Source of the DNA: Candidatus Nitrospira kreftii
GTDB lineage: Bacteria; Nitrospirota; Nitrospiria; Nitrospirales; Nitrospiraceae
Direction: 5' to 3'
Assembly: GCA_014058405.1 (NCBI GenBank)
Contig: CP047423.1
Location: 434,001 to 498,000, forward strand
DNA length: 64,000 bases
The translations under genes were made by a program, and so were the position numbers. Under the pieces are notes generated by a model. That model was not told the origin of the DNA. It was given only the letters and a program-made list of their open reading frames with translations, and ran no database searches. Of the stretch, positions 14,010-31,947 are shown one piece after another; the first letter of the stretch is position 1, and every line of letters begins with the position of its first letter.

Positions 14010-14086
14010 GTGGGTGTAGCTCAGTTGGTTAGAGCGCCGGATTGTGGATCCGGAGGTCGCGGGTTCGAAACCCGTCATCCACCCCA
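14010..14086 (+). tRNA. tRNA-His (GTG anticodon)
   Basis: A full cloverleaf can be drawn. The acceptor stem GTGGGTG pairs with CATCCAC (one G-T pair), the D stem is GCTC/GAGC, the anticodon stem is CCGGA/TCCGG with loop TTGTGGA (anticodon GTG, His), and the T stem is GCGGG/CCCGT with loop TTCGAAA. A C discriminator and CCA are encoded. A G at 14009 supplies the genomically encoded G-1 that histidine tRNAs need opposite C73. The 3' part is the left attachment repeat of an integrated element, and the tRNA is left intact. Confidence 0.97.
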
Positions 14087-15306
14087 TGCCCTCTTGTCAT
14101 AACTTCTTGTGGGATCAATTGATCTGAAGATGTTGGTCCGATGAAAGCTGGTGCCGGTTGCGCCGAGGTTGCAGAATTAGCCGTGAGCATGGGCGTATCG
14201 AGTCGGTCCACGGCCTGGGTATTCCCGCCTGGAATCAAATGACCGTACAGGTCCACCGTGACTTGGATTGAACTGTGACCCATCTGATCCTTTACGTAGA
14301 CAGGACTCTCACCGTTCTGGAGCAGTAACGACGCGAAGCTATGGCGGAGATCATGGAAACGGACTTGCCGCACTCCGGCCCTTTTCAAGAGCTTGAAGAA
14401 CTGCAAACGGATCCAATTCTGATGCAACGGTTTCCCATTTGCATCGCAAAATACCCACTGGGATGACTCCTTGCCCTCTGTGGCGGCCTCTTGCTGTCGA
14501 TTCAATTGTAACGCTTCCAGCGTACCGGTCAGCTCTCGGGATAGGTCCACTCGTCGCGATTCGCCACTCTTCGGCGTAGTCAGCCGGCCACGTGTGAAAT
14601 TCTGGCGCACTTCGACAAATCGGCCGGTCAGGTTGAGAGCGTCCCATTGGAGAGACAGCAGTTCGCCTTGGCGAAGTCCCGTCCGAGCTGCACAGAGAAA
14701 GAGCGGATAGACATTTGGAGCTGCCTGCTTGCTATATGTCAGGAACTGCGCCAATTCTTGGCGGTTCAACGGATCAATGGAGCGCCGCTTGCTGATTTTT
14801 GGCAAGAACTTGCCGGGATTGAGTGCGGGATTAGCCGTGAGCAGATTGTCTTCGATGGCATGGCTGAAGAGGCTACTCAATGTACGAATGATATTGATCA
14901 CGGTCTTAGGTGCGAGGCCTCGCTTGAGGCAGGAGACGGCTAGCGCTTTGACTTTGTCTCGGGTGATCTGGCTTAGCGCCACACCGCGAAAGACCGGGAA
15001 CACGTAGCGGTTGAGCACCTTTCGATAATCATCATGCGTCGTATGTTTGCGGGTCTGTTCTATTCGTACGAGAAACGTCTCGGCATAGGCGTCCAAGGTC
15101 ATGCTGATCTGTGGGCGTTCGAACGCGGTCTGCCCGAGTGCCAGCCTCGCTTGAATCTGTTGTGCAACTTGCTTCGCAGCCTTCTTGGCGATCTCACCTC
15201 TACCAATCCGCTTGGCTTTACGTGTGCCCTGATGGTTGATGAAAACCCACCAGGCATTCTTCCACTCTCGCATCGTGACGCCCATGGTGCGTATGGTAGT
15301 CCTCAC
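14029..15306 (-). CDS. Tyrosine-type site-specific integrase
   Basis: A 425-residue integrase. The N-terminus has an arm-type DNA-binding region (WKNAWWVFINHQGTRKAKR) and a SAM-like core-binding domain (residues about 70-160). The catalytic domain shows ARTGLRQGE (Arg I), HDLRHSFAS (H-x-x-R) and MGHSSIQVTVDLYGH with the nucleophile Tyr. GTG 15306 has AGGAG about 8 bases upstream; ATG codons at 15285 and 15273 are alternatives. The gene reads through the attachment repeat and ends inside the tRNA, so its last residues (RTRDLRIHNPAL) are antisense tRNA sequence. It starts 13 bases after the upstream HTH gene. It catalyses integration and excision of this element. Confidence 0.95.
   Translation of the reverse strand: MRTTIRTMGVTMREWKNAWWVFINHQGTRKAKRIGRGEIAKKAAKQVAQQIQARLALGQTAFERPQISMTLDAYAETFLVRIEQTRKHTTHDDYRKVLNRYVFPVFRGVALSQITRDKVKALAVSCLKRGLAPKTVINIIRTLSSLFSHAIEDNLLTANPALNPGKFLPKISKRRSIDPLNRQELAQFLTYSKQAAPNVYPLFLCAARTGLRQGELLSLQWDALNLTGRFVEVRQNFTRGRLTTPKSGESRRVDLSRELTGTLEALQLNRQQEAATEGKESSQWVFCDANGKPLHQNWIRLQFFKLLKRAGVRQVRFHDLRHSFASLLLQNGESPVYVKDQMGHSSIQVTVDLYGHLIPGGNTQAVDRLDTPMLTANSATSAQPAPAFIGPTSSDQLIPQEVMTRGHGVDDGFRTRDLRIHNPAL
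14064..14088 (+). repeat. Left attachment repeat (att), 25 bp, in tRNA-His 3' end
   Basis: The 25 bases from the T loop of tRNA-His through the CCA end and two further bases recur exactly at 31923-31947. The adjacent bases differ on both sides. This is the expected footprint of tyrosine-recombinase integration at a tRNA 3' end. Confidence 0.92.
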
Positions 15307-15319
15307 AAACCTACTCCTG

Positions 15320-15610
15320 TCAAGCTGTTCGACGCGGCTTCTGAATCTGAGAGACGACCGATTCCACCAGCTCAGCCAAATCGTTGGCTGGTTGCATTGT
15401 CCGGTGCGTCGTCATCCACCGATCGAACTCCTCACGCTTCACCAAGATCTTGCCTCCCACTCTGTAGTGAGGCAGCGGCTGATGGTGGTCGACCAGCCGG
15501 TTGCGCAACCACCGAACGGAGCAGCATGAATACGCGGCTAAGGCCTGGAGATCGAAATAGCCAGACGCATTGAGAATTCGGACGTTCACAGCTCCAGTTC
15601 CTCGAACCAT
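15320..15610 (-). CDS. Helix-turn-helix protein, excisionase/MerR-like
   Basis: A 96-residue protein with an excisionase-type winged helix: LQALAAYSCCSVRWLRNRL as the HTH, then YRVGGKILVKREEFDRWM, the usual wing of Xis/DNA-binding family proteins. It lies directly upstream of the integrase on the same strand, the usual place for a directionality factor or integrase regulator. A GTG at residue 8 (15589) is an alternative start. Its role in excision is inferred from family and position. Confidence 0.75.
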   Translation of the reverse strand: MVRGTGAVNVRILNASGYFDLQALAAYSCCSVRWLRNRLVDHHQPLPHYRVGGKILVKREEFDRWMTTHRTMQPANDLAELVESVVSQIQKPRRTA

Positions 15611-15629
15611 GCGTGGGGATCGACAGTTT

Positions 15630-15698
15630 TCACGCGTCTCGTAGCAATCGAGCCGTTGCGATCTGTTCGGATAAGAAGCTGCGAGACACTTTGTTCAT
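15630..15698 (-). CDS. Possible 22-residue peptide or leader ORF upstream of the integrase operon
   Basis: A tiny frame starting MNKVSRSFL has GAGGAGAAC directly upstream of its ATG and ends 19 bases before the HTH gene. It may be a translated leader of the HTH-integrase operon. No homology is recognised. Confidence 0.25.
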   Translation of the reverse strand: MNKVSRSFLSEQIATARLLRDA

Positions 15699-15939
15699 AG
15701 TTCTCCTCACCGACCTTCTCTTCCTGCTCTCCATCTCGCCTCGGGGGAGTCTTCCGACACCACCATCTCCCCCTACATGCGCCCGCGTCACCGCCGGCGG
15801 GGATTGAAGACTAACCTCCCAGTGGGGGCGGGCCATCGCCACGGAGCAGCGGATCAGGCCTTCTCAAACTTCCTGAGCCCACTCTTCCCCGTCCAGGCCT
15901 GCCCGCCGCGAGCGCGCTGAGCCCTCCTCCTCCTCCTTC

Positions 15940-15972
15940 TGCCCCACCCCCGGTTTTGTGCGGGGTGGGGCA
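15940..15972. repeat. Perfect 11-bp inverted repeat (G/C-rich hairpin)
   Basis: The arms 15940-15950 and 15962-15972 are exact complements with an 11-base loop. It sits in the divergent region between the integrase operon and the RadC-like gene. Neither side has a T-run, so it is not a standard terminator. It may be an origin-type or regulatory hairpin of the element. Confidence 0.6.
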
Positions 15973-15994
15973 CAGCTTTGAAGGAGGAATTCGG

Positions 15995-16498
15995 ATGAAA
16001 AAACCATCGCGACTCACAGCAGCGGCCAGTCAGCCATCGGACTCCATCGGGACAGCCGAGCCGTATCGGGCTCCTCGGTATCGGGTCACGCTCGTCTGTG
16101 ACACGGCTGGGACCGCATCGCCCGAACTCATACAGGATTCGCGCACGGCTCTGTCGATGTTCCGGCCCTGCTTTGAGGGATTGGATCGGGAACACTTCGT
16201 GGTCTGTGGGCTGGATGCGAAACATCGGGTGATCGGGATCAATGTGGTGTCGGTCGGCACGCTGACGCTGTCCATCGTCCATCCACGTGAAGTGTTCAAG
16301 CCGTTGATCGTGATGAATGCGGCCGCCTGGCTGTGCGCCCATAATCATCCCTCCGGAGACGCTACGCCGAGTCAAGAAGATCGTGTCTTGACTAAGCGAC
16401 TTCGCGAAGCCGGGGACCTGTTGGGCATCACGCTGTTGGATCATCTCATCCTCGGGGAGGAACGCCACTATAGCTTTGCCGATGAGGGCTGGCCCTGA
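15995..16498 (+). CDS. RadC-like JAB-domain protein
   Basis: A 167-residue protein with the JAMM metal motif HNHPSGDATPSQED (HxHP-x7-S-x2-D type) and the usual C-terminal LLDHLILGEERHYSFAD. It is shorter than chromosomal RadC (about 220) and lacks most of the N-terminal helix-hairpin-helix part, as is common for copies on mobile elements. GGAGG lies 6 bases before the ATG at 15995. The biochemical role of RadC proteins is unsettled; a DNA- or ubiquitin-like-processing metalloprotease fold is all that can be claimed. Confidence 0.85.
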   Translation: MKKPSRLTAAASQPSDSIGTAEPYRAPRYRVTLVCDTAGTASPELIQDSRTALSMFRPCFEGLDREHFVVCGLDAKHRVIGINVVSVGTLTLSIVHPREVFKPLIVMNAAAWLCAHNHPSGDATPSQEDRVLTKRLREAGDLLGITLLDHLILGEERHYSFADEGWP

Positions 16499-16532
16499 TT
16501 CCGAGGCAGCGGTCACGATCGACCGATCCTTG

Positions 16533-16697
16533 TCACCACCGATCTCCGCCTTCTGCGTGTTCACTGTGTCGGAGGTGCTCCACGAGGGTGTCGATCGCCA
16601 CTCGAACCAGCTCTTCACGTTCGGGTCGTGAGCCTTGTACCTCAATGGAGGCCTGCGTGGTGGAGCCGCCCGACCAGTTCACTGTGAGGGTCAACAT
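16533..16697 (-). CDS. Small hypothetical protein (54 aa) downstream of the replication gene
   Basis: The frame starts MLTLTVNWSGGS and ends at TGA 16535-16533. It begins 26 bases after the stop of the Rep gene on the same strand, with an AAAGGA-type site about 9 bases before the ATG. A beta-like N-terminus is followed by a helix rich in Glu/Arg/His. It is probably an accessory product of the rep operon. No family is recognised. Confidence 0.45.
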   Translation of the reverse strand: MLTLTVNWSGGSTTQASIEVQGSRPEREELVRVAIDTLVEHLRHSEHAEGGDRW

Positions 16698-16723
16698 GAA
16701 AGGGGTCCTTTCTGACTACTGGA

Positions 16724-17764
16724 TCACGCACCAGCGGGAGCATAGGCCGCCGAGAAGCCATCCCGGGGATTCCACCACTGCAGCCGGCGTCTCGTGTGCT
16801 CGAGTGTCTTGCCACCTTGGAGGAACGCGAGATGCTTGCTCCGCCACCGATCCACGCCGTCGACAATGGTCCTGACCAGCCACCGTTCCCCCGCCTCCGG
16901 ATGGGCACAGAGCAGGCTCAATGTGGGCGCCAAGCTCCTCTCGGCCCAGCGCTTGACCTGTTCGATGGTCTTGACCGACTGCTCGATCGCAAGTTTGGCC
17001 CGGGCCATGCCGTCGGTGAGCACTTTCCACCAGGGGAGGATTGGCGCGTAGTAGCGATCTTTGGGGTCATCCGCTCGCGTACAGTTGCGGAAATCCACGG
17101 CGGTACGGAACACCCCGACGATGTAGCGTTGGAAGGAGTCCTGATCCAATGTGGACAAGGCCAAGCCCACGGCCTGAGCCCGTTCCCGTTTCCATTCCAT
17201 TTCCCAGCGCATCCAGGGCCCCTCGACCGGCTTCTCTTTGGCCCGTTGTTCTGCCGCTTTGTCATAGATCCGGAGATAGCTCTCCGATTGACGCGACCCC
17301 AAGGCGAGTGTCTTGCCACGCTCAGCCCCTGTAGGCACATCCAGCCCACCGATGATCCGGCACTGCCGGAAGTGCGAAACACAGTGGCCTTTGGCCACGG
17401 CTTCATAGACCCCGTCGACATCGATAACGCCCATGCGATCATCGAGCGCGACATCGATCCGGCCGAAATGCCCCTTCTGATCGAACACCCACGCCGCTAG
17501 CTGATGAAACTTCTCGAAGGGCCAATGACTGATCAGTTCTTGCGAGAGATCGACATGGACTTCACGAGGTGCTCGTTTGGCTCCGGTGGCAATCCGGCCA
17601 TAGCCACTGTCATTGCCTCGGCAGATCCAGACCTCCCGGTACCCTTCATAGCCCTTCTCATCTCGGATCCAGTCTCCCTCACCGAGTACTCGCTTGAGGA
17701 TCTCCACCGTGGAGGAGGGAACGGTAAACCGAAGCCATCCGATCGACATCGACCAGCTACTCAT
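16724..17764 (-). CDS. Rep_trans-type replication initiation protein
   Basis: A 346-residue protein resembling the Rep_trans/pT181-like 'replication initiation factor' family. Supporting segments include an early SIGWLRFTV strand, GRIDVALDD (an acidic catalytic-type motif), GLDVPTG...TLALGSRQSESYLRIYDK (with the conserved tyrosine region) and WMRWEMEWKRERA. Such proteins nick a double-strand origin and start rolling-circle replication of plasmids, filamentous phages and some ICEs. Its ATG overlaps the stop of the upstream HTH gene (ATGA), so translation is coupled. Presence on this element implies that the circular form may replicate. Confidence 0.75.
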   Translation of the reverse strand: MSSWSMSIGWLRFTVPSSTVEILKRVLGEGDWIRDEKGYEGYREVWICRGNDSGYGRIATGAKRAPREVHVDLSQELISHWPFEKFHQLAAWVFDQKGHFGRIDVALDDRMGVIDVDGVYEAVAKGHCVSHFRQCRIIGGLDVPTGAERGKTLALGSRQSESYLRIYDKAAEQRAKEKPVEGPWMRWEMEWKRERAQAVGLALSTLDQDSFQRYIVGVFRTAVDFRNCTRADDPKDRYYAPILPWWKVLTDGMARAKLAIEQSVKTIEQVKRWAERSLAPTLSLLCAHPEAGERWLVRTIVDGVDRWRSKHLAFLQGGKTLEHTRRRLQWWNPRDGFSAAYAPAGA

Positions 17765-18072
17765 ATGGACCTCCGTGAACGTGGTTGGAATTTGCGCCCC
17801 CGTTTGACTATCCGGGGGCTGGGCTGCCCGTCGCGCCGTCGGCTGGCGCCGCCGGTCGCGCGGCGTCCACGTCCCCCGGCAGTGTCGACGGTGACCATCT
17901 GTCCATCCCCGTTCCGTTGGATCGCGGCCCGCACCTGGTCGAGATCGAAACGGACCATGCGACCGATGCGGATCACCGGCAGGTGGCCCTTCCAGTAGGC
18001 GCGACGGACGGACACCACACTGACCTTCAAAACGGCGGTAAGTTCCGGGACGGTCAACCAGGTGCTCTTCAT
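17761..18072 (-). CDS. Excisionase-like helix-turn-helix protein
   Basis: The start at 18072 (MKSTWLTVPEL) has a Shine-Dalgarno-like AAGGAAGGGT directly upstream; a longer frame from 18126 is less likely. The first 60 residues form an excisionase-type HTH (WLTVPELTAVLKVSVVSVR then LPVIRIGRMVRFDLDQV). The tail is very basic and Arg/Gly-rich and may bind DNA nonspecifically. It overlaps the rep start by 4 bases. It probably regulates rep or excision, and the iteron-like repeats just upstream are plausible binding sites. Confidence 0.75.
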   Translation of the reverse strand: MKSTWLTVPELTAVLKVSVVSVRRAYWKGHLPVIRIGRMVRFDLDQVRAAIQRNGDGQMVTVDTAGGRGRRATGGASRRRDGQPSPRIVKRGRKFQPRSRRSI

Positions 18073-18150
18073 ACCCTTCCTTTCATGTCGCGCTGTGGCA
18101 GGAGCGGACCTTACGCGGGAACTCACGCCGGTGGAAGTAGTCCTGTTGTG

Positions 18151-18187
18151 GTCAGGAAGGGTCAGGAATGGTCAGGAGGAGTCAGGA
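18151..18187. repeat. Four direct repeats with exact 10-bp period (iteron-like)
   Basis: The heptamer GTCAGGA occurs at 18151, 18161, 18171 and 18181, exactly one helical turn apart, with variable 3-base spacers. The row lies about 80 bases upstream of the HTH-rep operon. It is a likely binding array for the Rep or HTH protein (origin or operator). Confidence 0.7.
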
Positions 18188-18837
18188 GTTCTGAGGGTGA
18201 GGTGGTGGCGGTGGAGCAGTTCGTGATGATTCCTTCAGCTTGAGTGGTTCAGATGACGAGAGACCAGTAATCGCGTCGCCTTTCTAGACGCAATGATGCG
18301 CAGATGGTGAATTGTAGGTATTTACGAGTTGGGTCACGCGAACGAGAACGACTCAGGAAGAAACGATACGAACGGACAGGACATTTCGAAGTTGCATGAA
18401 AAAATATTTTGGCTCTGGGCCGAATAGCTCTAGGAACTGTTGAATAAAGCGAAGGGGGGTTTTTCGTGCGACGATGGTGAACAACAGTTTATCAAGACCC
18501 TCGAGGCCGCCATCTCTTTGAGGCGTTCTCTGTGGAGTGCGCGTGCGCGCCTCTCTATGGGGTGGGGCTCTCTCTTGAGAGGGGCACGTATGACGTGGGA
18601 CTAGAGCTTACCTCTATAAGGCGACGCTCTGGCAGAATCTGAACGAGAAATGACCGTTCTTCGCGACGACCTTCGTAGGATCCTTTAACGATCAGCCTGG
18701 TGCCTGGCGCAACGGCACCTCATTCGGTTTCAATGACCTGGAGGCGCTCATGCACGTCGTCTTCGAGGCAGGAGTGGATCACGCTCAGAGGCTGAAGCGA
18801 GCTCCCTAAGGACCATCTGGCTGAATATCCATTGGCC
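18188..18837. other. Gene-free stretch within the element
   Basis: No convincing gene is seen on either strand. It joins the replication backbone (left) to the cargo (right). One part (about 18400-18440) is AT-rich compared with its surroundings. No clear repeat or terminator was found. Confidence 0.5.
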
Positions 18838-20943
18838 TTACTCATCGTCGTCGTCTCCCTCGGTGCCATTGCCGCGGTTTCCTCTCTCTCCTCTGTTATT
18901 ACCGTTTCCCCTGTTGCCTCCATTAGTGGCCTCGTCTCCATTCATTGCACGAGTGATAGTGATGGAGTACGTCTTCGAACTGCCATTTGGAGCGGTCACC
19001 GTGATCGAGGCAGCCGTGCTGGTTCCGGCTCCGTTGAGCGGAATGGTCGCGTCTCCTGTCGGAACTCCCGTCCCGGCGCTCACTGAACCGGAGATCACGG
19101 CATTCGCGTCCGCCTTTGTCGCCGACACGTGTATGCTCATGACCTCGCTGGCGACACCTGTTGTATAGTCCTCTGTGTCCGCCGCAAAGGCAGGCGTGAG
19201 TGACCCTGGCGAGACCGTCAGGGCTGACAGGTGGGTATTGCTCGAAGAGGCTGCTCGGTGCATGGTGAGACGGTACGTCTTGGAGCTGCCGTTCGGCGCG
19301 GTGACAGTCATCAACACCACCGTCGCGGTCCCTTCCCCGCCGAGTGGTATGGTCGCTTGGCCGGTGGCCGTTCCTGCTCCGGCTGTCACATCCTCAGACA
19401 GCACGGCAGTGGTATCGGCTTTGGTGGCCGAGACCGTGACGCCGGTGACGGCGCTCGCCACATTCACCGTATAGCTCAGCGTACTTGGTGCAAATGCAGG
19501 AGCCAAGCGGCCTGGAGACACGCTCAGAGCCGACAGATGGTTGTCCCCACCCAGGGCGGCGCGATCGACTTCCACCGTATAGGTCTTCTGCGTTCCGTTC
19601 AGTGCCGTCACCACCAGAGTAATCAGGGTGCGTAGCCCTGCTGCACGCAAGGTCATGGGACGAGCCTGTCCAGAGTTGGTGGGTGTCCCGTTCACTGTCA
19701 ACGTGGCCGTAGAGTCGTGCAGTGTCGGCGTCACGGTGACGGTCGTGACACTGGTCGCCACACTCACCGCATAGTCCTCGGTCTCGGAATTGAAGGCAGG
19801 CGACAAGGGACCAGGCGACACCGTCAACCCGGAGAGGTTGTTGTTTCCAGCCAGGGCGGCGCGAATGACGTTCACAACATATGTTTTGGCAGGGCCGCTC
19901 TGAGGGTCCACGACGATCGTGATAAAGGTGTTCGATCCCGGTCCGTTCAATGTCACGCTGCGAGCCTGCCCTGAGGTCGTGCCTTGCCCACTGACGGTCA
20001 TGATTGAATCCGTATCTTGCAAAGTCGGCGTGATCGTGACGCTGGTCGTCCCGCTTTCCACATTAACGGTGTATCCGACGGTACCGGCGCTGAAAGCGGG
20101 GGTGAGGCGTCCGGGTGAGATAGTCAGGCTCTGCAAGTTGTTATTGTTGGAGACCCCGCGGCTCACCGTCACCAGGTAGGCTTTGTCATTGCCGTTCTGG
20201 GCCGTCACGAGGATGGTGATGGTCGTACTTTGTCCTGGGCCATTGAGGGTGATGGCACGAGCGTGACCGGAGATCGCGGCTTGCCCATTCACGGTCAGCG
20301 TCGCCGCAGGATCCGATAGCGCGGGCGTGACGGTCACGCTGGCGACGGTGTTGGCGACCATGGCGGTATAGACCAGGGTGTCCGCAGTGAATGCGGGGGC
20401 CAGGGTTCCGGATGACACCGTCAAGCTCTGCAAGGAATTCGTTCCAGCTACTCCTGCTCGGTCCAGACGGAGGGTGTAGGTTCTCGAACTCGTATTCGAT
20501 TCGGAAACCACGATCGTGACGATCGTCGTGGACCCTGCTGGCTCGAGGGTAATGGAACGGCTGGTCGTCGCCTGGCCGTTGATCGTCACGGTATCCCCTG
20601 ACACGGCCGCTTGAGCGTTGACGAGCACGCTCTCGACACTGCTGGTCAGATCGATACGGTATTGGGTGGTTCCGCCGCTAAAGGCTGGTTGGAGCGTTCC
20701 GGGTGTAATGGTCACGCTAGCCAGCTCCACCGCTGGGTTCACCGACGCGCTGTCACTACACCCATGGAGGCCCAGACCGGACATGACAAGAACCATCCCC
20801 AGATACGTTCCAGCAGCGGAGACACATCTATTGCGAGCCCAATACAGTGTGTCAAACTGATTTTGATCTGGAGCCGCACGTCGCTTGGGCCGCGGTGTGA
20901 AGCGTGGGAGAGAGTGTACGATGTGGGGGGAGGGAGGCTGCAT
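18838..20943 (-). CDS. Large lipoprotein with six cadherin-like beta-sandwich repeats
   Basis: This 701-residue protein has a hydrophobic segment ending in a lipobox-like LGLHGC near residue 62, so it is probably lipid-anchored. A start closer to that segment is possible. Six repeats of about 95 residues follow. Each begins L-x-x-L-[TS]-[VI]-[ST]-x-G-x-L-x-PAF and continues with a Y-x-V strand, an x-SVTVTPT strand and an NGxxKTYxVxVxRA end. This is the pattern of the 'cadherin-like beta sandwich' family (PF12733). The C-terminal tail is Asn/Gly/Arg-rich and ends in a run of acidic residues. It is probably a surface adhesion or matrix protein carried as cargo on the copper element; function is inference. 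Confidence 0.8.
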   Translation of the reverse strand: MQPPSPHIVHSLPRFTPRPKRRAAPDQNQFDTLYWARNRCVSAAGTYLGMVLVMSGLGLHGCSDSASVNPAVELASVTITPGTLQPAFSGGTTQYRIDLTSSVESVLVNAQAAVSGDTVTINGQATTSRSITLEPAGSTTIVTIVVSESNTSSRTYTLRLDRAGVAGTNSLQSLTVSSGTLAPAFTADTLVYTAMVANTVASVTVTPALSDPAATLTVNGQAAISGHARAITLNGPGQSTTITILVTAQNGNDKAYLVTVSRGVSNNNNLQSLTISPGRLTPAFSAGTVGYTVNVESGTTSVTITPTLQDTDSIMTVSGQGTTSGQARSVTLNGPGSNTFITIVVDPQSGPAKTYVVNVIRAALAGNNNLSGLTVSPGPLSPAFNSETEDYAVSVATSVTTVTVTPTLHDSTATLTVNGTPTNSGQARPMTLRAAGLRTLITLVVTALNGTQKTYTVEVDRAALGGDNHLSALSVSPGRLAPAFAPSTLSYTVNVASAVTGVTVSATKADTTAVLSEDVTAGAGTATGQATIPLGGEGTATVVLMTVTAPNGSSKTYRLTMHRAASSSNTHLSALTVSPGSLTPAFAADTEDYTTGVASEVMSIHVSATKADANAVISGSVSAGTGVPTGDATIPLNGAGTSTAASITVTAPNGSSKTYSITITRAMNGDEATNGGNRGNGNNRGERGNRGNGTEGDDDDE

Positions 20944-21529
20944 GTGATCCGCTCACGATCCTGGGGATGTCTCGAGCTCATTAATGATTGGTTTTAGTAT
21001 TTATCCACTACGATGCAGAAACTCTCCTGGCAGAAGCCCTAGTCTTAAGTCTAGGCCCTAGATATTGTGCAGGCTTCCAAGCCCTTGACCCCCGGTGATC
21101 TGAATAGGCGTAGCGATCGATTCGCGGAGCTGAAGGTCTTCCGATTCAATCTTGTTCATAAAAAACGACGTTTTGCGCACCTGCATCAGCGGATCGCTCT
21201 TCTGCCGACAAAGCGGGCGCATCTGAAGGATCTCATTCTTGCACTCTAATGGCTGGCCTGGGTACGACATATGGCTGGCACAACACATACAGAAAACGCC
21301 GATATGCCGATATTTGGTGAAGCCTTGATAGCGCCAATCCAGCAGAGGGTGGCCCCAGTATGAGGGAATCAGGAAACTGGTTCATGAGTGGGAAGGATCT
21401 TTGGCACGACCTAGGCAGAATGCCTAGCCTAACCTAGGGAAATGCCCAGCTACTGGCTTTGTGATCAGGGAGTAATGAGAGGACAAAGGAGAGAGGCCAC
21501 GAAGGAATCTGCGAGCTTAGGTGGTCACC
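20944..21529. other. Regulatory-looking intergenic region with CTAG-containing repeats
   Basis: No gene is supported. An exact inverted repeat of 7-bp arms with a 3-base centre (CTAGGCA/TGCCTAG) lies at 21411-21427, about 100 bases upstream of the MEDS-domain gene. More CCTAG-type words lie near 21040-21062 and 21433-21438. It could hold an operator for the divergent genes on each side. Confidence 0.4.
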
Positions 21530-22102
21530 ATGCCTGCCAGCGGTCTTCGCGGTATTCATGATATCCCGTTAGGGTCTCATATCTGCACATTTTACCGACA
21601 ACCCAAATATTTTCTCCGAATGAGCGCCTCCTTTCTCAAGGCAGGCTTGATCAACCATGAAGCATGCGTCTGGATTCTTCCGTCCCCGGTGACACTCGAA
21701 TCCGCTGTTCATGCGCTCTCCCAGCATGGTTTGGATGCTGCAGAACTGCAAGCCACGCAGCAGCTTCAAATCTTATTGGCACACGACTATTATTTTGCTT
21801 CAAGCCTCTTTGATGTCGATGCTGCCTTAAATCGGCTCGTGTCGCTATGTGTGATGGCCCGCCAACTGGGCTACAGGAGCGTCCGTGCCGCCGGCGGTCC
21901 CGGGCCGTTTCTCTCCGAGGGACGTCGCCGAGCCTTTATGCGCTATGAACAACATGCGACGGAGGTCATCGCCAGACATCCGGGGATCGGATTATGTTGC
22001 TATCCCTCCCCCCACTGTTTACCGGCCACCGAGATCTTCGACATTATGAGTACGCATCCGAAAGCGTTCCTGCGAACACACGACGGTTGGGCCACCGTCT
22101 AA
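21530..22102 (+). CDS. MEDS-domain sensor protein
   Basis: A 190-residue protein made of a single MEDS (methanogen/methylotroph DcmR sensory) domain. It begins with GIHDIPLGSHICTFYR and has LRMSASFLKAGLINHEACVWILP, followed by the conserved helical segment and a C-terminal TEIFDIMSTHP. The Cys/His residues in HICTFYR and CCYPSPHC are conserved in type and could bind a metal or ligand. No output domain is attached, so it would act through a partner. AGGTGG lies 5-6 bases before the ATG at 21530. A link to the nearby copper genes is inferred from position. Confidence 0.75.
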   Translation: MPASGLRGIHDIPLGSHICTFYRQPKYFLRMSASFLKAGLINHEACVWILPSPVTLESAVHALSQHGLDAAELQATQQLQILLAHDYYFASSLFDVDAALNRLVSLCVMARQLGYRSVRAAGGPGPFLSEGRRRAFMRYEQHATEVIARHPGIGLCCYPSPHCLPATEIFDIMSTHPKAFLRTHDGWATV

Positions 22103-22264
22103 GGGAGCGTGTGATTCAGGCCACTGTCCTGTGTGCAGGTCGCCATGGAGATGCAGTAGTGTGAAAATGCCCTCTATCGCAGGCAATACCCTCGATGGCG
22201 ATGACGGTTCTACCGCTAGTTTAATCTGAGGCGTCTTACTTTCTTGCACCTCCTCCGATAATGC

Positions 22265-22477
22265 TTATCGCCACGTAACTTCTTCCCAGAAGAGATGGAT
22301 AAAGGTTTCAAAAGGCGGAAAGTTGTGTGCATTTTGTGCTTTGGACCGCACCCAGAGATCAATCTCCATCCCGGCCGGATCTGTTGCGCCCCCTGGCAAC
22401 ACACGTTTCACCGGATAGCGGACCTCATGGGTCTTGGGATCACGCGAGCGCTCCATCACCATAAAAATGCGCGTCAT
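22265..22477 (-). CDS. Small hypothetical protein
   Basis: The frame starts MTRIFMVMERSRDPK and ends WEEVTWR (70 residues). AAGGAG lies only one base before this ATG, so translation may begin at one of the Met codons 5-8 codons later. The composition is protein-like (charged, aromatic-rich C-terminus) and unlike a shadow frame. No family is recognised. Confidence 0.4.
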   Translation of the reverse strand: MTRIFMVMERSRDPKTHEVRYPVKRVLPGGATDPAGMEIDLWVRSKAQNAHNFPPFETFIHLFWEEVTWR

Positions 22478-22734
22478 ACTCCTTATAGAGTACCTGGTCC
22501 TCTTTATATATCGTCGCGGTGCCCTAGCCACCGAGATACAGCCATGTTTTGGGATACAGAGGATCGCCGTTGTTGAAGTCGCTAGATGGTCTCTCGGATG
22601 ACAGGATGCTACGAGCCATACTGCACTGTATCAACCGCTGAAGCGAGGTATAACCAAGCAGCCATCAGGCATGCACGTTGGGACGGATTTGAGGGAGGCG
22701 TTGACTCGATTCATACCCGTTGGTAGCATTGAGC

Positions 22735-23064
22735 ATGCGCCGAATGGCCACACTCCTCGTTTTCTTGCTGCTCATTCTCACCTTCAACGCCTACGCCTGC
22801 GTCCTGCCTTTACCGACCGTCACCAAGGCGGATTGTTCCTCGGACACGGACGACCAAGCACGGCAGACATGCGATGCGTTTCTTGAAATAGGGCCTCACT
22901 CACAGCTTTGGTCCAACCATGCCGTGAGCTTGCTCGGCCTTGAATGCGCAGTGCCGATTGAATCGTCTGCAACCTTCGTGTCCAGTTTCAAAGCGACACC
23001 AGCTCCTGGCAGTGCCGATACGCCAATTCATCTCTCCATCCCAAATACTGTTCTGAGGATTTGA
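22735..23064 (+). CDS. Small secreted Cys-containing protein, unknown function
   Basis: The N-terminus MRRMATLLVFLLLILTFNAYA is a clear signal peptide. The mature part of about 90 residues has four cysteines (ACVLP, ADCSS, QTCDAF, LECAV) that could form disulfides or bind metal. It sits 69 bases before the Tat-exported copper-binding protein and in the same direction, so it may belong to the copper response. No family is recognised. The start at 22735 puts positive charge before the hydrophobic core. Confidence 0.55.
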   Translation: MRRMATLLVFLLLILTFNAYACVLPLPTVTKADCSSDTDDQARQTCDAFLEIGPHSQLWSNHAVSLLGLECAVPIESSATFVSSFKATPAPGSADTPIHLSIPNTVLRI

Positions 23065-23133
23065 TACCCTCCTCTTGGTTTCTGTGTGCCAACAGACAGA
23101 GTACGCGAACAGCACGCCACGAAAGGGGGAGTT

Positions 23134-23634
23134 ATGTCCTTGATCAACGCTATAAGCAGAAGAAGACTTCTATCTACCGGTGCATCTCTAGTCGCTGCCG
23201 GTGCGTCGTTCATGATCGTGCCGAAAGGGTATGCCACCTCTGGTGGCAAGTCCGATGCGCCCGCGCCCTTGGTTCAAGGAGGGCATCACATGAACGGCGC
23301 GATGGACCAATGCATTCAGCTCTGCCGAGACTGTCATGCGATGTGCATGCAAACAATCGCGCATTGTCTGAAATTAGGGGGGCGCCATGCTGCCCCCGAT
23401 CACATTCGCCTCTTGATGGACTGTGCACAGATGTGCACGACCACGGTTGACTACATGCTTCGTGAGTCTTCGTTTCACGATCGGGTCTGCCGCCTCTGTT
23501 CCGACCTGTGTACGCAGTGTGGGCAGAATTGCAAGAAGGTGGCAGGAGACGATCAGCTGATAAACCGGTGCATCGAGGTCTGTCGACAGTGTGCGGAATC
23601 TTGTGAGCGGATGGCATCCGAAGTGGCAGCCTAG
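23134..23634 (+). CDS. Tat-exported four-helix bundle copper-storage-like protein (Csp/DUF326 type)
   Basis: The start at 23134 has AGGGGGAG upstream and gives a twin-arginine signal (ISRRRLLSTGASLVAAG). The mature part is helical with cysteines in CxxxC and CxxC-type spacing (MDQCIQLCRDCHAMCM, MDCAQMCTT, VCRLCSDLCTQCGQNC, CIEVCRQCAESC) plus Met and His. This matches the Csp1-like copper storage proteins, which line a four-helix bundle with Cys to hold many Cu(I) ions. It would act in the periplasm as a copper sponge beside the ATPase and oxidase encoded downstream. Confidence 0.85.
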   Translation: MSLINAISRRRLLSTGASLVAAGASFMIVPKGYATSGGKSDAPAPLVQGGHHMNGAMDQCIQLCRDCHAMCMQTIAHCLKLGGRHAAPDHIRLLMDCAQMCTTTVDYMLRESSFHDRVCRLCSDLCTQCGQNCKKVAGDDQLINRCIEVCRQCAESCERMASEVAA

Positions 23635-23957
23635 CCACCCAACGGTCATGTCGCTCCTGCCGAGTCTGCGCGGGCTGTGGCTGGATCACAGTCTGCGCGG
23701 ACTCAGTCTATCTTGCATCAGAGTAGCGACTTGCTGCTGCCAGTTGAGTGCGAAAGCACCCTGACATATCTTGATCCGCGTGTGCGATCCCTGAAGAGAA
23801 ACAGGGAGACCATGTGAAACACCGAACATTGTAGTATTAGCACTTAAGCTATTCGTAAAATACAGGCGTGTGACAACATGCAGGGAACATGTACCAAGCC
23901 AGTCGGGCTTTTGGCAGGCGGCCCCGCGTGCCGCTTTTCGTCGGTACCGGACAGTCG
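23635..23957. other. Intergenic region between convergent genes
   Basis: No supported gene. A TTG-initiated frame on the minus strand overlaps the end of the sigma gene but has no family features or ribosome site, so it is left out. Confidence 0.4.
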
Positions 23958-24545
23958 TCAACGGGTTGAGCAGGTACAGTTAAGACAGCCGTGTTTCGTA
24001 CAGACTCCACACGTTGCTTCAAGGGACATGCGGAGTGCTTGTCGTGCTCGATGGAGTCGTACCGTGGCATTGTTTTGGGAGATATGGAGAGCCTTGGCGA
24101 CCATTGCCGGCGCTTCACCGTGTAGATCAATACGTCGAATGAGTTCTGCATAGTTGGGACGTAGGGCGGCTATTACTTCTTCTATGCAGTGGCAAATCGT
24201 ACCCTTGATCTCGTCTAGGGACGGTACTGCTTGTAGCTGGAGTACTTGAGCATCCTTTTCGAAGGCGTCATGCTGTCCCCGCTGAGCCGCTTTGGCACGG
24301 TAGTAATCAATCACTGCATTTCGGAGGACACGATAGAACCAGGGCACGACGCTCTCCTCCCTTTTGATGGTATGTTGATGCTCGATTGCGCGTACCAGGC
24401 ATTGCTGGAACACGTCGTCCGCGATTGTCCGGTCGCCCAATTGTCTCCCTAAGAAAGCACGGAAGGCCGGTTCGTTCTCGAGAATACGTGCGAGATTGCC
24501 CACGCCCGAGTTGGCCTGACCAGATTCTTTATTTGGTTCAGTCAT
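23958..24545 (-). CDS. ECF sigma factor with Cys-rich C-terminal tail (CorE-like, probably copper-responsive)
   Basis: Sigma region 2 is seen in FLGRQLGDRTIADDVFQQCLVRAIE and VVPWFYRVLRNAVIDYYRAK (each quoted in part). Region 4 is in LRPNYAELIRRIDLHGE and ALHISQNNATVRLHRARQAL. The protein ends in a short Cys-rich tail with CGVC and CLNCTC, plus Cys-His in the linker (CHC). CorE-type (ECF44) sigma factors use such a C-terminal Cys-rich domain to sense copper directly, without an anti-sigma factor. No anti-sigma gene is visible here, which fits. It is divergent from the copper ATPase gene, which it may activate. Confidence 0.82.
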   Translation of the reverse strand: MTEPNKESGQANSGVGNLARILENEPAFRAFLGRQLGDRTIADDVFQQCLVRAIEHQHTIKREESVVPWFYRVLRNAVIDYYRAKAAQRGQHDAFEKDAQVLQLQAVPSLDEIKGTICHCIEEVIAALRPNYAELIRRIDLHGEAPAMVAKALHISQNNATVRLHRARQALRMSLEATCGVCTKHGCLNCTCSTR

Positions 24546-24837
24546 CTTGACCCCTCACGGTGAATCGCTGAAGCCCATTGTATACGGTCCTGCTCTCCCA
24601 AGGTGAAGCTTCCTTCCTTCATCCCTTAAATGTCACTGAGTTCTAAGTCTTTTCTTGCCGGTGGGTAGCTATCTGTAATGTTACAGCACTCCGCCCGTCT
24701 GCAGGTATGAAAAGAGTCTCAGGGACCTTGCTAGGAGACTAATTCACTGTGCCAAACATAAAATGATGGAGGGTACTATGACAGCAGGTAGAACGAACGG
24801 GTGCTGTTCATCCAAACGTTCTGGAGGAGGTGAGCAT
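24546..24837. promoter_or_regulatory. Divergent control region of the copper genes
   Basis: This region separates the Cys-rich sigma gene from the copper ATPase. It holds an inverted repeat CTGTAA/TTACAG with a 2-base centre at 24673-24686, a candidate operator. An in-frame upstream extension of the ATPase from 24763 also lies here. Confidence 0.45.
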
Positions 24838-27300
24838 ATGGCTCGAGGTACAACCGTACTGCCGACGCTGGAGCTCGCAGGGGACGGACTGGCCATTGAT
24901 CCCGTCTGCGGCATGTCCGTCAATCCTCGTGATGCGGCGGCGAAAGCCGAATACCACGGACAGACATATTATTTTTGTAATCCGTCCTGCCACAAGAGGT
25001 TCGTCTCCGATCCTGCTCGCTACCTCTCAGGGAGCAAGCGGGAGCCCCATGGTCACCCCGCGCAACATGGCGAGGATGTTGACTATACCTGCCCTATGGA
25101 TCCCGAAGTCCGCCAAAAGGGACCAGGGACCTGCCCAAAGTGCGGGATGGCGTTGGAGCCGGCCGAGGTGACGGCTCCAGCGACCCGGACGGAATACACG
25201 TGTCCCATGCATCCCGAAATCGTCCAATCGAAGCCGGGCAATTGCCCCATCTGCGGGATGGCCCTGGAGCCTCGAACCGTAACAGGAGCGGAAGTCAATC
25301 CGGAGCTGGTGGATATGGCACGCCGGTTTTGGCACAGCGTGATTCTGGGCTCTCCCATTCTGGCGCTCATGATCTCGGAGATGCTGCCAGGCCGACCGTT
25401 GCAGCAACTCGGTTCGGGTCGCACACTGATCTGGTTGCAATTCGCGCTGGCCACACCGGTGGTGCTCTGGGCCGGCTGGCCTCTCTTCCAACGAGCCTGG
25501 GCGTCGATCGTCAACCGCCATCTCAACATGTTTACTCTCATCGGTTTGGGCACCGGTGCCGCGTATCTGTACAGCGTGGCCGTGACGCTCGTTCCTTGGC
25601 TGTTCCCGGATTCGTTCCGCGACCACAGCGGCGAGCTGGCCGTCTACTTTGAACCGGCCGTGGCCATCGTCGCCTTGGTGCTGTTGGGACAGGTGCTGGA
25701 GCTGCGGGCGCGCAGCCGCACGAGCAGCGCCTTGAAATCCCTGTTGAGCCTCGCCCCGAGAAGCGCGCGTGTCGTCCGTGCGGACGGCCGTGAAGAAGAT
25801 GTCCCGTTGGACCAGGTGCAGGTCGGCGATCATCTGCGCGTCCGTCCTGGCGAGAAAATCCCGGTGGACGGCGTGGTGTTGGAGGGAGGCAGCTCAGTCG
25901 ATGAATCGATGGTGACCGGAGAGCCCATTCCAATGGAAAAGCACGCTGGTCAGACAGTGGTGGGGGCCACGGTCAATGGCACCGGCAGCTTCGTAATGCA
26001 GGCACAGCGGGTTGGCCGCGAAACCCTGCTCTCGCAGATCGTGCGCATGGTCAGTGAGGCGCAGCGAACCCGTGCGCCCATTCAACGGCTGGCAGACCTC
26101 GTCGCCGCGTATTTCGTCCCCATTGTCATCTTCGTGGCGGTGGCCACCTTCGTGGTCTGGGCCCTGTACGGTCCGGAACCCCGCATGGCCTATGCGCTAC
26201 TCAATGCCGTGGCGGTCTTGATCATTGCCTGCCCTTGCGCCTTAGGGCTGGCGACACCCATGTCGGTCATGGTCGGGACTGGGCGTGGGGCGACGGCGGG
26301 CGTGCTGATCCGCAATGCCGAGGCCCTGGAGACGTTGGCCAAGGTCAATGTGTTGGTCGTCGATAAGACGGGCACGCTGACGGAAGGCAAGCCTCGCCTC
26401 ATGACCGTCGCGCCGGCGCCCGGATACACCGATGCCGAGCTCCTCCGCCTCGCAGCTGGGGTAGAGCAGAGCAGTGAGCATCCTCTGGCGGCGGCCATCG
26501 TCCACGGGGCGCGAGACAGAGACATTGTGCCGCCAAAGGCACAGGACTTCCGCTCGGTCACCGGAAAAGGAGTTACGGGCACGGTCGATGGCCGGTCCGT
26601 CACCGTCGGGACGGTGTCATTCCTCAACGACATCTCCGTCGAGACGAAGCATCTGCTGGAGCAAGCCGAGCCCATCAGCTCGCAACGCCAAACGGTCATG
26701 TTCGTCGCGATTGACGGTACGCCGGCAGGATTGCTGGGGGTGGCCGATCCTATCAAGCCATCCACACCGGAAGCCATCGATCTGCTGCATCGGGAAGGGC
26801 TTCGGATCGTGATGCTGACCGGTGACAGCCGGACAACTGCGGAGGCCGTGGCTACCCAGCTTCACATCGATGAGGTGCAGGCCGAGGTGCTGCCAGCGCA
26901 GAAGACCGCCGTGATCAAACGCCTCCAGGCAGAGGGCTATGTGGTGGCCATGGCGGGCGATGGGATCAACGACGCCCCAGCGTTGGCGCAGGCCCACGTG
27001 GGAATCGCCATGGGAACGGGAACCGATGTGGCAATGGAAAGCGCCGGCGTAACGTTAATCAAAGGAGACCTTCGGGCCATCACGCGGGCGCGCCGATTGA
27101 GCCGCGGGACAATGCGCAATATCCGGCAGAATCTGTTTTTCGCATTCGTCTATAACATGCTGGGCGTTCCTATTGCGGCCGGGGTCCTGTATCCGTTCGT
27201 CGGGATTCTCCTCAGCCCAATGATCGCCAGTGCAGCCATGACCTTCAGCTCGGTGTCGGTTATCGGCAACGCGCTACGACTGAGGAATCTGCAACTATAA
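24838..27300 (+). CDS. Copper-translocating P1B-type ATPase with YHS and two HMBD domains
   Basis: The start at 24838 has GGAGG 7 bases upstream; ATGs at 24763 and 24778 would add a Cys-containing N-terminus. The N-terminal YHS domain has DPVCGMSVN and [12 protein letters not shown]. Two heavy-metal-binding domains follow, each with YTCPM[DH]PE and CPxCGMALEP. The transporter core has the CPC motif in [12 protein letters not shown], the TGEP actuator loop, DKTGTLT (phosphorylated Asp), the HP motif SEHPLA and [10 protein letters not shown]. It exports copper from the cytoplasm at the cost of ATP. It is followed by the multicopper oxidase gene after 35 bases, so the copper genes form one operon. 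Confidence 0.95.
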
Positions 27301-27335
27301 CGAGGATAGTACGTCGCTCGATTAACGAGGATGTC

Positions 27336-29153
27336 ATGAACGAGACTGTCCTGACGCGACGCGAACTGCTGAAGCAAGCCGGGGGAGTGGGATGTCTGGC
27401 AGCGTTGCAACAGCTCTTGCCTGCTGGCGCAGTTAGCGCACTCTCACCCGCGCCGCTGCCGAGCGCAAACTCAACGGCGCTGAGCGGTGACATCATCGAC
27501 CTGGTGATCGGCGAATCGCCGTTCACGCTGGACAGGCGGACTGCGACTGCGATGACAATCAACGGGACAATCCCAGGACCGCTGATCCGTCTGAAGGAAG
27601 GGCAGGAGGCGACGCTCCGAGTCACGAATCACTTGAAAGAAATTTCATCTATTCACTGGCATGGGTTGCTACTGCCGTCTCACATGGATGGCGTGCCGGG
27701 AGTGAGCTACGGCGGAATCAAACCTGGGACGACCTTCACCTACCGGTTTCCGATCAAGCAGAGCGGCACCTATTGGTTTCACAGCCATTCGGGCGGCCAG
27801 GAATTACAGGGCCTGTACGCACCGATGATCCTAGAGCCACTCGAGCCGGAGCCGTTTTCCTATGATCGGGACTATGTGGTGATGCTATCGGAATGGACGT
27901 TCGAGTCCGCGGAGATCGTGTTCGACAATCTCAAAAAGTTCTCGGGCTACTACAACTTCCAGAAGCGGGCCGCTCCGGAGTTCCTTTCCGACGTTGCACA
28001 ATGGGGCCTGTGGCCTGCACTGCAGAATTATCTGATGTGGGACCAGATGCGGATGGACCCGACCGACTTTGCCGATGTGACGGGCTCCACCTTCACCTTT
28101 CTCACTAATGGACGTCCGCCATCGGCCAATTGGACCGCCCTCTTTCGGCTGGGAGAACGGATCAGGCTCCGCTTCATCAATGCGGCGGCGATGACGTTCT
28201 TCGATGTGCGTATCCCGGATCTCGCAATGGCGATCGTCCAGGCCGATGGTCAGAACGTTCAGCCGATCGTCGTGGAGGAATTCCGTATCGGTCCAGCAGA
28301 AACCTACGACGTAATTGTCGAACCGAGGGAGGATCGAGCCTATACGATTTTTGCCGAGACGATGGACCGCAGCGGATACGCGCGCGGGACTCTCGCGACA
28401 AAGCCCGGGGTGAGCGGCGAAATTCCCGAGCGGCGGCCCCGTCCGATTCGGACGATGGAAGACATGGGCATGGCAGGCCATGACAGCGGCCATGCGATGG
28501 CTATGTCCGGCCCGAGGCCGTCCGAAAACCATACAAACAGCCATGGCATGCGGTCACATCAGGGTAGGGACCATGGATCGGGCACGGAAACGGAGACTCG
28601 CCCACCCTCGCTGATCCCCGGCGCAGCACCGGTCGCACATGGCCCCGACCATCATGGTACTGGCAACCAGACGGTCGCCGAATTTTCCCAGAATCGCATG
28701 CATGAACCAGGCAGAGGACTGGAAGGAAGTCCGCGGCGCGTGCTCGTCTATACCGACTTAAAAAGCCTCGTGCCTCACCCCGACCAACGGGAGCCGGAAC
28801 GAGAGATCGAGCTCCACATTACCGGTCATATGCAGCGCTATATGTGGTCGTTTGACGGCAAGAAATATTCGGACGCGCCTGAGCCGATCCGCTTTCGCTA
28901 TGGCGAGCGGGTGCGGCTCACCTTCGTGAATGACACGATGATGGAGCACCCACTCCACCTCCACGGGATGTGGATGCAGCTCGAAAACGGCACGGGCGCC
29001 TACCTACCGCGCAAACATACGGTTGCCGTCAAACCGGCTGAGCGACTGTCCGTCATCATTAGCGCCGATGCTCCGGGTCCCTGGGCTTTTCACTGCCACC
29101 TTCTCTTCCACATGGAAGCGGGCATGTTCCGAGTTGTCGAGGTGTCCGCCTGA
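27336..29153 (+). CDS. CopA-type multicopper oxidase (copper resistance)
   Basis: A 605-residue periplasmic oxidase with a twin-arginine signal (LTRRELLKQAGG). The four copper-site motifs are all present: HWHGLLLP, HSHSGGQ, HPLHLHGMW, and HCHLLFHMEAGM near the C-terminus. A Met/His-rich insertion of about 100 residues (around 370-470, with MEDMGMAGHDSGHAMAM) probably binds extra copper. It oxidises Cu(I) to the less toxic Cu(II) in the periplasm. It lies between the copper ATPase and copB, spaced for one operon. Confidence 0.93.
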   Translation: MNETVLTRRELLKQAGGVGCLAALQQLLPAGAVSALSPAPLPSANSTALSGDIIDLVIGESPFTLDRRTATAMTINGTIPGPLIRLKEGQEATLRVTNHLKEISSIHWHGLLLPSHMDGVPGVSYGGIKPGTTFTYRFPIKQSGTYWFHSHSGGQELQGLYAPMILEPLEPEPFSYDRDYVVMLSEWTFESAEIVFDNLKKFSGYYNFQKRAAPEFLSDVAQWGLWPALQNYLMWDQMRMDPTDFADVTGSTFTFLTNGRPPSANWTALFRLGERIRLRFINAAAMTFFDVRIPDLAMAIVQADGQNVQPIVVEEFRIGPAETYDVIVEPREDRAYTIFAETMDRSGYARGTLATKPGVSGEIPERRPRPIRTMEDMGMAGHDSGHAMAMSGPRPSENHTNSHGMRSHQGRDHGSGTETETRPPSLIPGAAPVAHGPDHHGTGNQTVAEFSQNRMHEPGRGLEGSPRRVLVYTDLKSLVPHPDQREPEREIELHITGHMQRYMWSFDGKKYSDAPEPIRFRYGERVRLTFVNDTMMEHPLHLHGMWMQLENGTGAYLPRKHTVAVKPAERLSVIISADAPGPWAFHCHLLFHMEAGMFRVVEVSA

Positions 29154-29170
29154 CTGCGGGAGATGCCTCA

Positions 29171-30010
29171 GTGACGACAGCCCTCAATATATGGCGCACG
29201 TTTATGGCGGTCTGCCTCATGAGCACCGGGATTGAGGTCGCCCCGGTGTTTGCAGAAGGCAGTTCCTCAACCATCGGGCCGAGGGATCAGCCCACCGTCA
29301 CTCAGGCCAATTTGGCTCCGCAGCAGGACTGGCCGAGCCCGGTCAACGATGAGGAACGACGACTCTTCATGTTAGTCGACGTACTCGAATATCGCCCACA
29401 GACCCGCGGCAGGGAGAACACGAGCGACTATCGCTGGGATGTCGAGGGCTGGTATGGCGGAGATTACAATCGGATCTGGTACAAAAGCGAAGGTCAGCAG
29501 GACACCGCATTCAAAGCGGACTACGACCTAGACTTCCAACTGCTTTATGGCCGTTTTGTGCAAAAATATTACGATGTGCAGATTGGCGGACGCATGGAAA
29601 CCCAATCGTTCCGCGGGCGGAATGTAACGCGCGGCTTTGGCGTGATCGGCCTTCAGGGCTTGGTGCCATACAACTATGAGTTCGAATCGGCTTTGTTCCT
29701 GGCTCAAGACGGGGCCGTCTCGGCCCGTCTGTCCTTCACCAAGGATTTTCTGCTGACGCAGCGGCTCATCCTTCAAGGCCGGTTTGAAATGAACGCCGCC
29801 ATACAGCGGGTTGAAGAATTCACCACCGGCTCTGGCTTAAACAATCTCGAGTTTGGGCTGCGATTGCGTTATGAGATCCGACGAGAGTTTGCCCCCTATC
29901 TTGGGGTCTCCTTCGATCGCAGCTATGGACAGACAGCCACTCTCGTCCGACAAGAAGGAGGGGACCCCAGCCAATTAAGGTTTGTGGTGGGGCTAAGAGC
30001 TTGGTTCTAA
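29171..30010 (+). CDS. copB: Copper resistance outer-membrane protein CopB
   Basis: The GTG-initiated 279-residue protein has a signal sequence (TFMAVCLMSTGIEVAPVFA). The mature part is beta-barrel-like with alternating aromatic and polar strands and a C-terminal Trp-Phe typical of outer-membrane proteins. The motifs YDLDFQLLYGRFVQKYYDVQ and NLEFGLRLRYEIRREFAPYLGV are typical of PcoB/CopB. It is translated 17 bases after the oxidase gene. Its stop overlaps the end of the convergent PilZ-type pseudogene by 4 bases. Confidence 0.9.
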   Translation: MTTALNIWRTFMAVCLMSTGIEVAPVFAEGSSSTIGPRDQPTVTQANLAPQQDWPSPVNDEERRLFMLVDVLEYRPQTRGRENTSDYRWDVEGWYGGDYNRIWYKSEGQQDTAFKADYDLDFQLLYGRFVQKYYDVQIGGRMETQSFRGRNVTRGFGVIGLQGLVPYNYEFESALFLAQDGAVSARLSFTKDFLLTQRLILQGRFEMNAAIQRVEEFTTGSGLNNLEFGLRLRYEIRREFAPYLGVSFDRSYGQTATLVRQEGGDPSQLRFVVGLRAWF

Positions 30011-30619: not shown

Positions 30620-30857
30620 GGGGGCTTCTCCTTCCAGTAACCGCCATCGCACTACAGCAATCGTAGCCTGACCGTCAGCCATGCGCCTTCCCCAAACTCG
30701 GTACGTCTGAAGGGGGAGAACCTAAAGCTGGTGAAGCCTGTCGGAACGGGTACGCCACGGGCTCTCGTACACAGGCGGTGAGCTGAACCATGTCCGATGA
30801 TGATTACAGGGAAAGAAGAGTTAGACTCAGCCATAACGCAGGATAGGGAGTTCTGCG

Positions 30858-31220: not shown

Positions 31221-31281
31221 GTCTCTCCTGATACAGCACGTGATGGGTGCGTCCACGTCCGTGTGGGCCTCTGCGCTGGAG

Positions 31282-31774: not shown

Positions 31775-31922
31775 GGCTTACCTCCGTCAGCTTGAGATGG
31801 GTCTGGATCCTCGGAATCCTGGTTGCAACCGGTTGCAGATTTGCGGATTGTTTTCCCTGTTTTTCCCTGATTTGCCGAGCTAAGTGTGCGAATTTGTTGA
31901 TTTGTCGATAAATCTGGTGCAA

Positions 31923-31947
31923 TTCGAAACCCGTCATCCACCCCATG
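31923..31947 (+). repeat. Right attachment repeat (att), 25 bp
   Basis: An exact copy of 14064-14088 (T-loop to CCA end of tRNA-His). The sequence before it (TGGTGCAA) does not continue the tRNA, so this is only the 3' fragment and marks the right end of the element. Confidence 0.92.

Follow-up and report, generated by a model that had tools for sequence, protein, structure and literature searches.

The row of four GTCAGGA repeats in the window, by which we mean the whole 64-kb stretch of DNA analysed, is most likely the operator of the adjoining HTH protein. Four protomers would sit head to tail on one face of the helix and activate the hth-rep operon, with Rep acting at a hairpin and with array and HTH protein exchanged between elements as a cassette. 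At the level of sequence, the array itself, its register with a promoter motif, its co-variation with the HTH protein and its independence from Rep can each be seen.

The repeat array and its genetic context

Exact copies of GTCAGGA begin at positions 18151, 18161, 18171 and 18181, a step of 10 bp, with 0 mismatches in all three successive pairs. Shuffled sequence, with up to 2 mismatches allowed, gave 0.58 pairs per window and three pairs in 1 of 100 shuffles. When periods of 5-20 were scanned, the array (25/30 matching bases at period 10) was the sole site in the 64-kb window with at least 24/30, and TRF also detects it, at 18149-18187. The initial annotation had described four copies at a strict 10-bp period, a description confirmed here and unique to this site in the window. 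It had also placed them upstream of a xis-rep operon. The position is right, since the array starts 77 bp 5′ of the ATG of the HTH_17 gene (18072) and the stop of that gene overlaps the rep ATG as ATGA, while the name xis is weak, the protein scoring 26.2 bits against the xis model TIGR01764, below the cut-off of 28.8. On the operon strand, the repeat unit is TCCTGACC followed by two variable bases. Within the source genome (4.13 Mb, one contig), exact matching finds the array pattern at 18151-18187 only; with 3 mismatches there are 27 matches, compared with 11 for a reversed control pattern, and these include sites 5′ of two Rep-less HTH genes. An Rfam scan of 17700-18900 returned no match.

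The array lies in an integrated element of ∼17.9 kb at tRNA-His (14064-31947), bounded by 25-bp repeats (Table 1). Reading from the array, the minus strand carries the HTH_17 gene, Rep_trans, a second HTH_17 gene, the tyrosine integrase gene and the tRNA gene, and a RadC-like gene sits among these element genes on the opposite strand. The nearest named relatives of the window Rep are Nitrospira assemblies. Against the MobT model NF041493, Rep reached E = 9.3e-16 and 57.6 bits, short of the equivalog cut-off of 600. Judged by eye from the translations, other genes of the element encode a copper-type P-type ATPase (24763-27300) and a protein resembling multicopper oxidases (27336-29153), and a 701-amino acid protein with six cadherin-like domains (PF12733; 18838-20943) is encoded beside the array region. 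An inverted repeat, CTCCTTCGTC...GACGAAGGAG, perhaps a single-strand origin, was noticed by eye ∼80-130 bp 5′ of the array at four related loci (L005, L011, L024 and L032); it looks decayed in the window, at ∼18215-18270.

Table 1. Features of the integrated element discussed in the text (window coordinates).
Feature	Position	Strand	Details
Proposed operator array of the HTH protein	18149..18188	-	four units of 10 bp each, reading TCCTGACCNN (operon strand) or GGTCAGGA (+ strand)
TTC element replacing the -35	18134..18136	-	21-23 bp 5′ of the -10-like hexamer
TAAGGT, -10-like member of TANGGT	18108..18113	-	anchor of the register test
GC hairpin GCCCCCG-GATAGTCAAA-CGGGGGC, candidate Rep nick site	17796..17819	-	3′ end of hth
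HTH_17 winged-helix protein, 103 aa, putative array binder	17761..18072	-	Pfam HTH_17, 34.9 bits (cut-off 27)
Rep_trans (PF02486) protein, 346 aa, MOBT-like	16724..17764	-	Pfam E 2.2e-39, 135.6 bits (cut-off 29.6)
Second HTH_17 protein beside int, other candidate excisionase	15320..15610	-	HTH_17, 27.3 bits (cut-off 27)
Tyrosine integrase, runs into the tRNA gene	14029..15306	-	PF00589, E 2.9e-27
attL repeat	14064..14088	.	inside and past the tRNA-His 3′ end
attR repeat	31923..31947	.	far end of the element

An AlphaFold model of the 103-amino acid HTH protein predicts a winged helix at approximately residues 1-57, with pLDDT of 75-88 to residue 50 and a whole-protein mean of 69.9. The best Foldseek matches are Pukovnik Xis, BldC, RdfS and the GIsul2 excisionase (E 0.018-0.15, probability 0.99-1.00; 0.018-0.09 for the first three), and VIA gives Z of 6.2-6.7 for the HTH fold matches, where values below 8 can reflect a common arrangement only. 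With these modest fold scores, the predicted structure places the cognate protein of the array in the MerR-like winged-helix class of the Xis/BldC type.

Related loci

A single-sequence search with Rep found relatives in 7/98 genomes, and a profile search found them in 16/79 genomes of the genus and 36/295 of the phylum; a search of genome contigs found Rep relatives at 15 loci. Viral contigs yielded no relative, and every Rep relative in 200 plasmid records was below 60% identity. After removal of exact duplicates, 97 loci remained, 58 of them with an HTH gene of the window's family upstream of rep. Near-duplicate loci persist in this set, since loci were merged only where a stretch of up to 450 bp was exactly identical. 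The G113 copy at the place of L022, G321:C90, G223:C3 and partial Rep matches lie outside it. The period count dropped L033 and loci with a Rep match starting past model position 30, giving 58 HTH loci and 36 others out of the 97; L070 is a run of N and was counted as unreadable, leaving 57 readable HTH loci. Correlations were computed on 52 of the 58, without L070, L018, L046, L088 (short Rep), L112 and L125 (short HTH). Promoter-anchored analyses used loci with TANGGT only: 48 loci for base conservation, 44 loci for register and 204 pairs for identity.

The array is conserved in period and varies with the HTH protein

A period-10 array precedes the HTH gene in 48 of the 57 readable HTH-Rep_trans loci (49/58 reach 20/30 if L070 is included). 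The best self-match at period 10 in the 210 bp before the HTH gene averages 22.3/30, compared with 12.7 in shuffles, and the other periods from 6 to 16 average 12.4-13.3/30, which is background. Nine loci fall below 20, with scores of 15-19 (L006, L011, L012, L028, L066, L074, L089, L090 and L113). The letters of the repeat differ among loci, the types being TCCTGACC as in the window, CTGTCC/CTGACC, TGTCCCC, AACTGCC, CCTAAGC, ACATCTG and GCACNAAA.

This variation follows the HTH protein. Across the 52 loci, array and HTH protein correlate with a Spearman coefficient of 0.789 (0.772 as a partial coefficient controlling for Rep; permutation p 0.001), a value inflated by linkage because the HTH gene and the array adjoin, and the partial correlation of array with Rep, with the HTH protein held constant, is small and non-zero (0.100, p 0.017). 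In the 61 pairs in which Rep is at least 90% identical and the HTH protein at most 65%, the mean array distance is 0.57 (0.52 for shuffled units), compared with 0.23 in the 110 pairs in which Rep is at least 90% and the HTH protein at least 80% identical. Where Rep identity is no higher than 70% and HTH identity no lower than 70% (16 pairs), it is 0.31. The cleanest case comes from the source genome itself, where locus L010 has a Rep 96% identical and an HTH protein 40% identical to those of the window, with a different array, of type AACTGCCG.

Three features of the sequences go beyond linkage. The period is kept despite the changed letters; in the 204 pairs of the same type the array is 74% identical and the 40 bp upstream of it 31%; and two Rep-less HTH genes of the source genome, L164 and L165, also have arrays (20/30; 14/30 with a 1-bp slip). 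Both genes (L164, 5182-5505; L165, 2368-2658) sit in small integrase elements with a family HTH gene and array, with no Rep_trans in the stretch read. When we searched for HTH residues that predict the array, partial signals were weak, at best 0.37, and we set them aside. Upstream of rep at L027 and L029 there are tandem array-plus-HTH cassettes with a truncated outer HTH gene, probably traces left by cassette exchange.

The array is phase-locked to a promoter-like element

The -10-like TANGGT is found upstream of the HTH gene at 48/57 loci, compared with 3.7% of random windows. Anchored on it, the T at -23 is invariant in the 48 sequences (effective number 18), and pairs of C recur at -67/-66, -57/-56, -47/-46 and -37/-36. 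In register, array bases agree across HTH types at 0.387; a shift of one turn gives 0.357 and 0.360, and intermediate shifts ∼0.25. Alignment on the ATG, the hairpin or the rep start instead gives 0.296, 0.285 and 0.285, respectively. The phase of the array is therefore set relative to TANGGT rather than to the hairpin or rep. In all 48 HTH loci the -35 zone is a weak one, with 3-4/6 matches, and a consensus scan found no sigma-70 site at the TANGGT promoter motif of the window. This layout would suit an activator on the polymerase face, the sign of control being what we infer from it.

RHH loci and the rep hairpin

At 14 loci an RHH gene takes the place of the HTH gene and there is no array (the 20/30 at L081 is an AT-rich run). 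Ten of the Reps at these loci are 93-96% identical to Reps at array-bearing loci, those of L009, L086 and L087 are 91-96% identical to the Rep of the HTH locus L088, and that of L082 lacks a close counterpart. RHH loci have better sigma-70-like sites than HTH loci (8-11/12), scores that the search favours because the best site was taken from a wide stretch. At L009, L086 and L087, palindromes such as CGTCATGCATGATGACG lie between TTGACA and the -10 and resemble a repressor operator in place of the array.

A GC hairpin is found no more than 110 bp upstream of rep in 91/94 loci, whichever regulator is present. Its 100 bp give a partial correlation of 0.70 with Rep and 0.37 with the HTH protein, and the hairpin region is 91% identical in the 61 pairs with a changed array. 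MOBT relaxases nick at CT′AA in the loop of a GC hairpin (PMC9371924, in excerpt). The loops here are GGTAA or AGTCAA, unlike CT′AA, so the hairpin is a candidate nick site only.

Alternative roles of the array

The initial annotation offered two readings of the repeats, an iteron-type origin and a regulatory operator contacted along one side of the helix. The sequence evidence supports the second, with the HTH protein as the likely ligand of an operator that is phased helically on a promoter-like element. The first, in which Rep would bind the four repeats to start or limit replication, is very improbable. The array does lie within 430 bp of rep and in one operon with it, and arrays persist at 15 loci after loss of the HTH gene. 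However, repeats of an origin would be conserved with Rep, and the partial correlation noted above is 0.100. Absence of the repeats from close relatives of the rep operon had been named as grounds for dropping the proposal; the array is present at most HTH loci and absent wherever the RHH gene replaces the HTH gene, even though 13 of those 14 Reps are 91-96% identical to Reps of array-bearing loci. The nearly unchanged Rep of L010 comes with another array, arrays stand at HTH genes without Rep, and what tracks Rep is another conserved feature, a GC hairpin such as Rep_trans would be expected to have. Because the array tracks the HTH protein, is missing from RHH loci and is locked to TANGGT, with the hairpin following Rep, the iteron-type reading fails and the operator reading stands. 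Equally improbable is that the repeats are excisionase sites proper, at which a Xis would act on recombination. RDFs do share this fold and this repeat spacing, but attL is 4 kb and attR 14 kb away from the array, and a period-10 array or tandem own-type core was found within 500 bp either side of the tRNA gene in 0/12 elements; the far ends were covered for the window alone. There, 50-70 bp inside attR, a two-copy TTTTCCCTG repeat was considered as an att-side array and rejected, since no two of its CCTGA cores are spaced by 10 bp.

Two further roles assume that the HTH protein binds the array. In one, quite improbable, the array is a relaxosome site from which the bound protein recruits Rep to the distant hairpin, comparable to the HTH domain of RelSt3 on IR2 away from nic. 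RelSt3 depends on an HTH site that lies 68 bp away from nic (PMC9371924), and HTH and RHH genes interchange here, RHH proteins being common relaxosome helpers in the excerpted literature. Yet the array stays in register with TANGGT rather than with the hairpin, which lies at anything from 264 to 342 bp from the -10, and the sharp conservation takes in the promoter-like element. In the other role, unlikely though less so, the array is a repressing operator through which the HTH protein shuts its own operon, as excerpted accounts describe RdfS attenuating its own promoter and Apl repressing pR and pL. An array placed 5′ of the -35 zone and not covering the promoter, a weak -35, and the activation of their own promoters by AlpA and XisF4 (both from excerpts) speak against repression.

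Comparison with known systems and proposed mechanism

Excerpts of the literature describe Xis, BldC, RdfS or like proteins binding direct repeats one turn apart, head to tail (PMC7498355, PMC5859096, PMC11963761), and by analogy the Nitrospira HTH protein probably lines up one per turn 5′ of its own promoter, like BldC, RdfS, Apl and lambda Xis. At the Streptomyces smeA-sffA promoter, four cooperative wHTH subunits of BldC, also a fold match, occupy four one-turn repeats upstream in the promoter (PMC5859096). BldC is, however, a chromosomal developmental regulator with AT-rich, loosely conserved sites, whereas the Nitrospira arrays are GC-rich, nearly exact and vary by element with the protein. 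RdfS of ICEMlSym is likewise a wHTH protein of an integrative element, with one molecule per 10 bp over 40 bp, and binds its own promoter; unlike the case here, the excerpted study found no consensus motif, and RdfS binds attP and attenuates its own promoter (PMC11963761). The Nitrospira array has clear repeats and no att-side copy at the tRNA ends of the 12 elements.

XisF4 of phage Pf4 is an excisionase-type protein that activates two promoters, its own (11-fold) and the replication initiator's (2.2-fold). It differs in belonging to a filamentous prophage with the initiator in a separate operon, and the excerpt of that paper mentions no phased array (PMC7379572). AlpA of E. coli PICIs, of the HTH_17/AlpA type, activates its own expression and replication of the integrated element, but in a phage satellite with Pri-Rep, and again no phased array is named in the excerpt (PMC6092414). 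RelSt3 and the MOBT oriT of ICESt3 share with the present element a PF02486 protein, a GC-rich hairpin nick site and a separate HTH-bound site (PMC9371924, in excerpt). The loop motif there is CT′AA and here GGTAA/AGTCAA, and in Nitrospira the HTH belongs to a different class, forms a protein of its own and has direct rather than inverted repeats.

In the mechanism that we propose for the operator, HTH protomers would bind head to tail, one per 10-bp unit, in a row of four that ends beside the -35 zone of the hth-rep promoter, here a motif rather than a mapped start. The row would contact RNA polymerase and most likely activate its own operon, switching a silent integrated element to Rep production; activation is not assured, since RdfS lowers its own promoter. 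Rep would act elsewhere, at the putative nick site in the GC hairpin in the end of hth. Array and HTH domain would be swapped between elements as one cassette, with the hairpin and rep remaining. Phased arrays are a kind of operator already known, while swapping matched pairs of regulator and operator on an unchanging Rep chassis appears to be new; searches of open-licence PMC papers on Nitrospira Rep_trans or integrative elements and on phased Xis-type operators turned up no such cassette system. For experimenters, the likely origin would move from the repeats to the hairpin inside the hth gene. The elements would also offer a natural set of small regulators with predicted distinct targets and a fixed promoter geometry, and thus a way to read DNA recognition by Xis/BldC-like wHTH proteins, left open for RdfS, which is without a consensus.

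Arrays without an HTH gene

Fifteen loci with no HTH gene before rep retain period-10 arrays, mostly two in a row (L062, L077, L079, L080, L083, L084, L097, L102, L107, L110, L111, L116, L117, L119 and L121). The first array is often of the GCGCAC type and the second of the TGTCC type; at the 13 of the 15 loci that were inspected more closely, TANGGT lies 62-76 bp past the start of the second array, approximately as usual, with self-matches of 15-24/30. These arrays fit the proposed operator poorly, and may be relics or may be controlled in trans. It is possible, and we suggest it tentatively, that Nitrospiraceae elements share one Rep/hairpin chassis and that some seven types of repeat, each paired with a type of HTH, occupy a common promoter register. 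Elements that have lost the activator gene and retain one or two arrays would then be switched on in trans by the activators of co-resident elements, one element listening to another. Among the genomes of these loci, G107, G201, G230 and G244 encode a matching HTH protein elsewhere, and G319, G215 and G167 show distant HTH_17 proteins only. Strict exclusion between co-resident elements of the same type was also considered and set aside, as G201 and G246 carry several copies of one HTH type.
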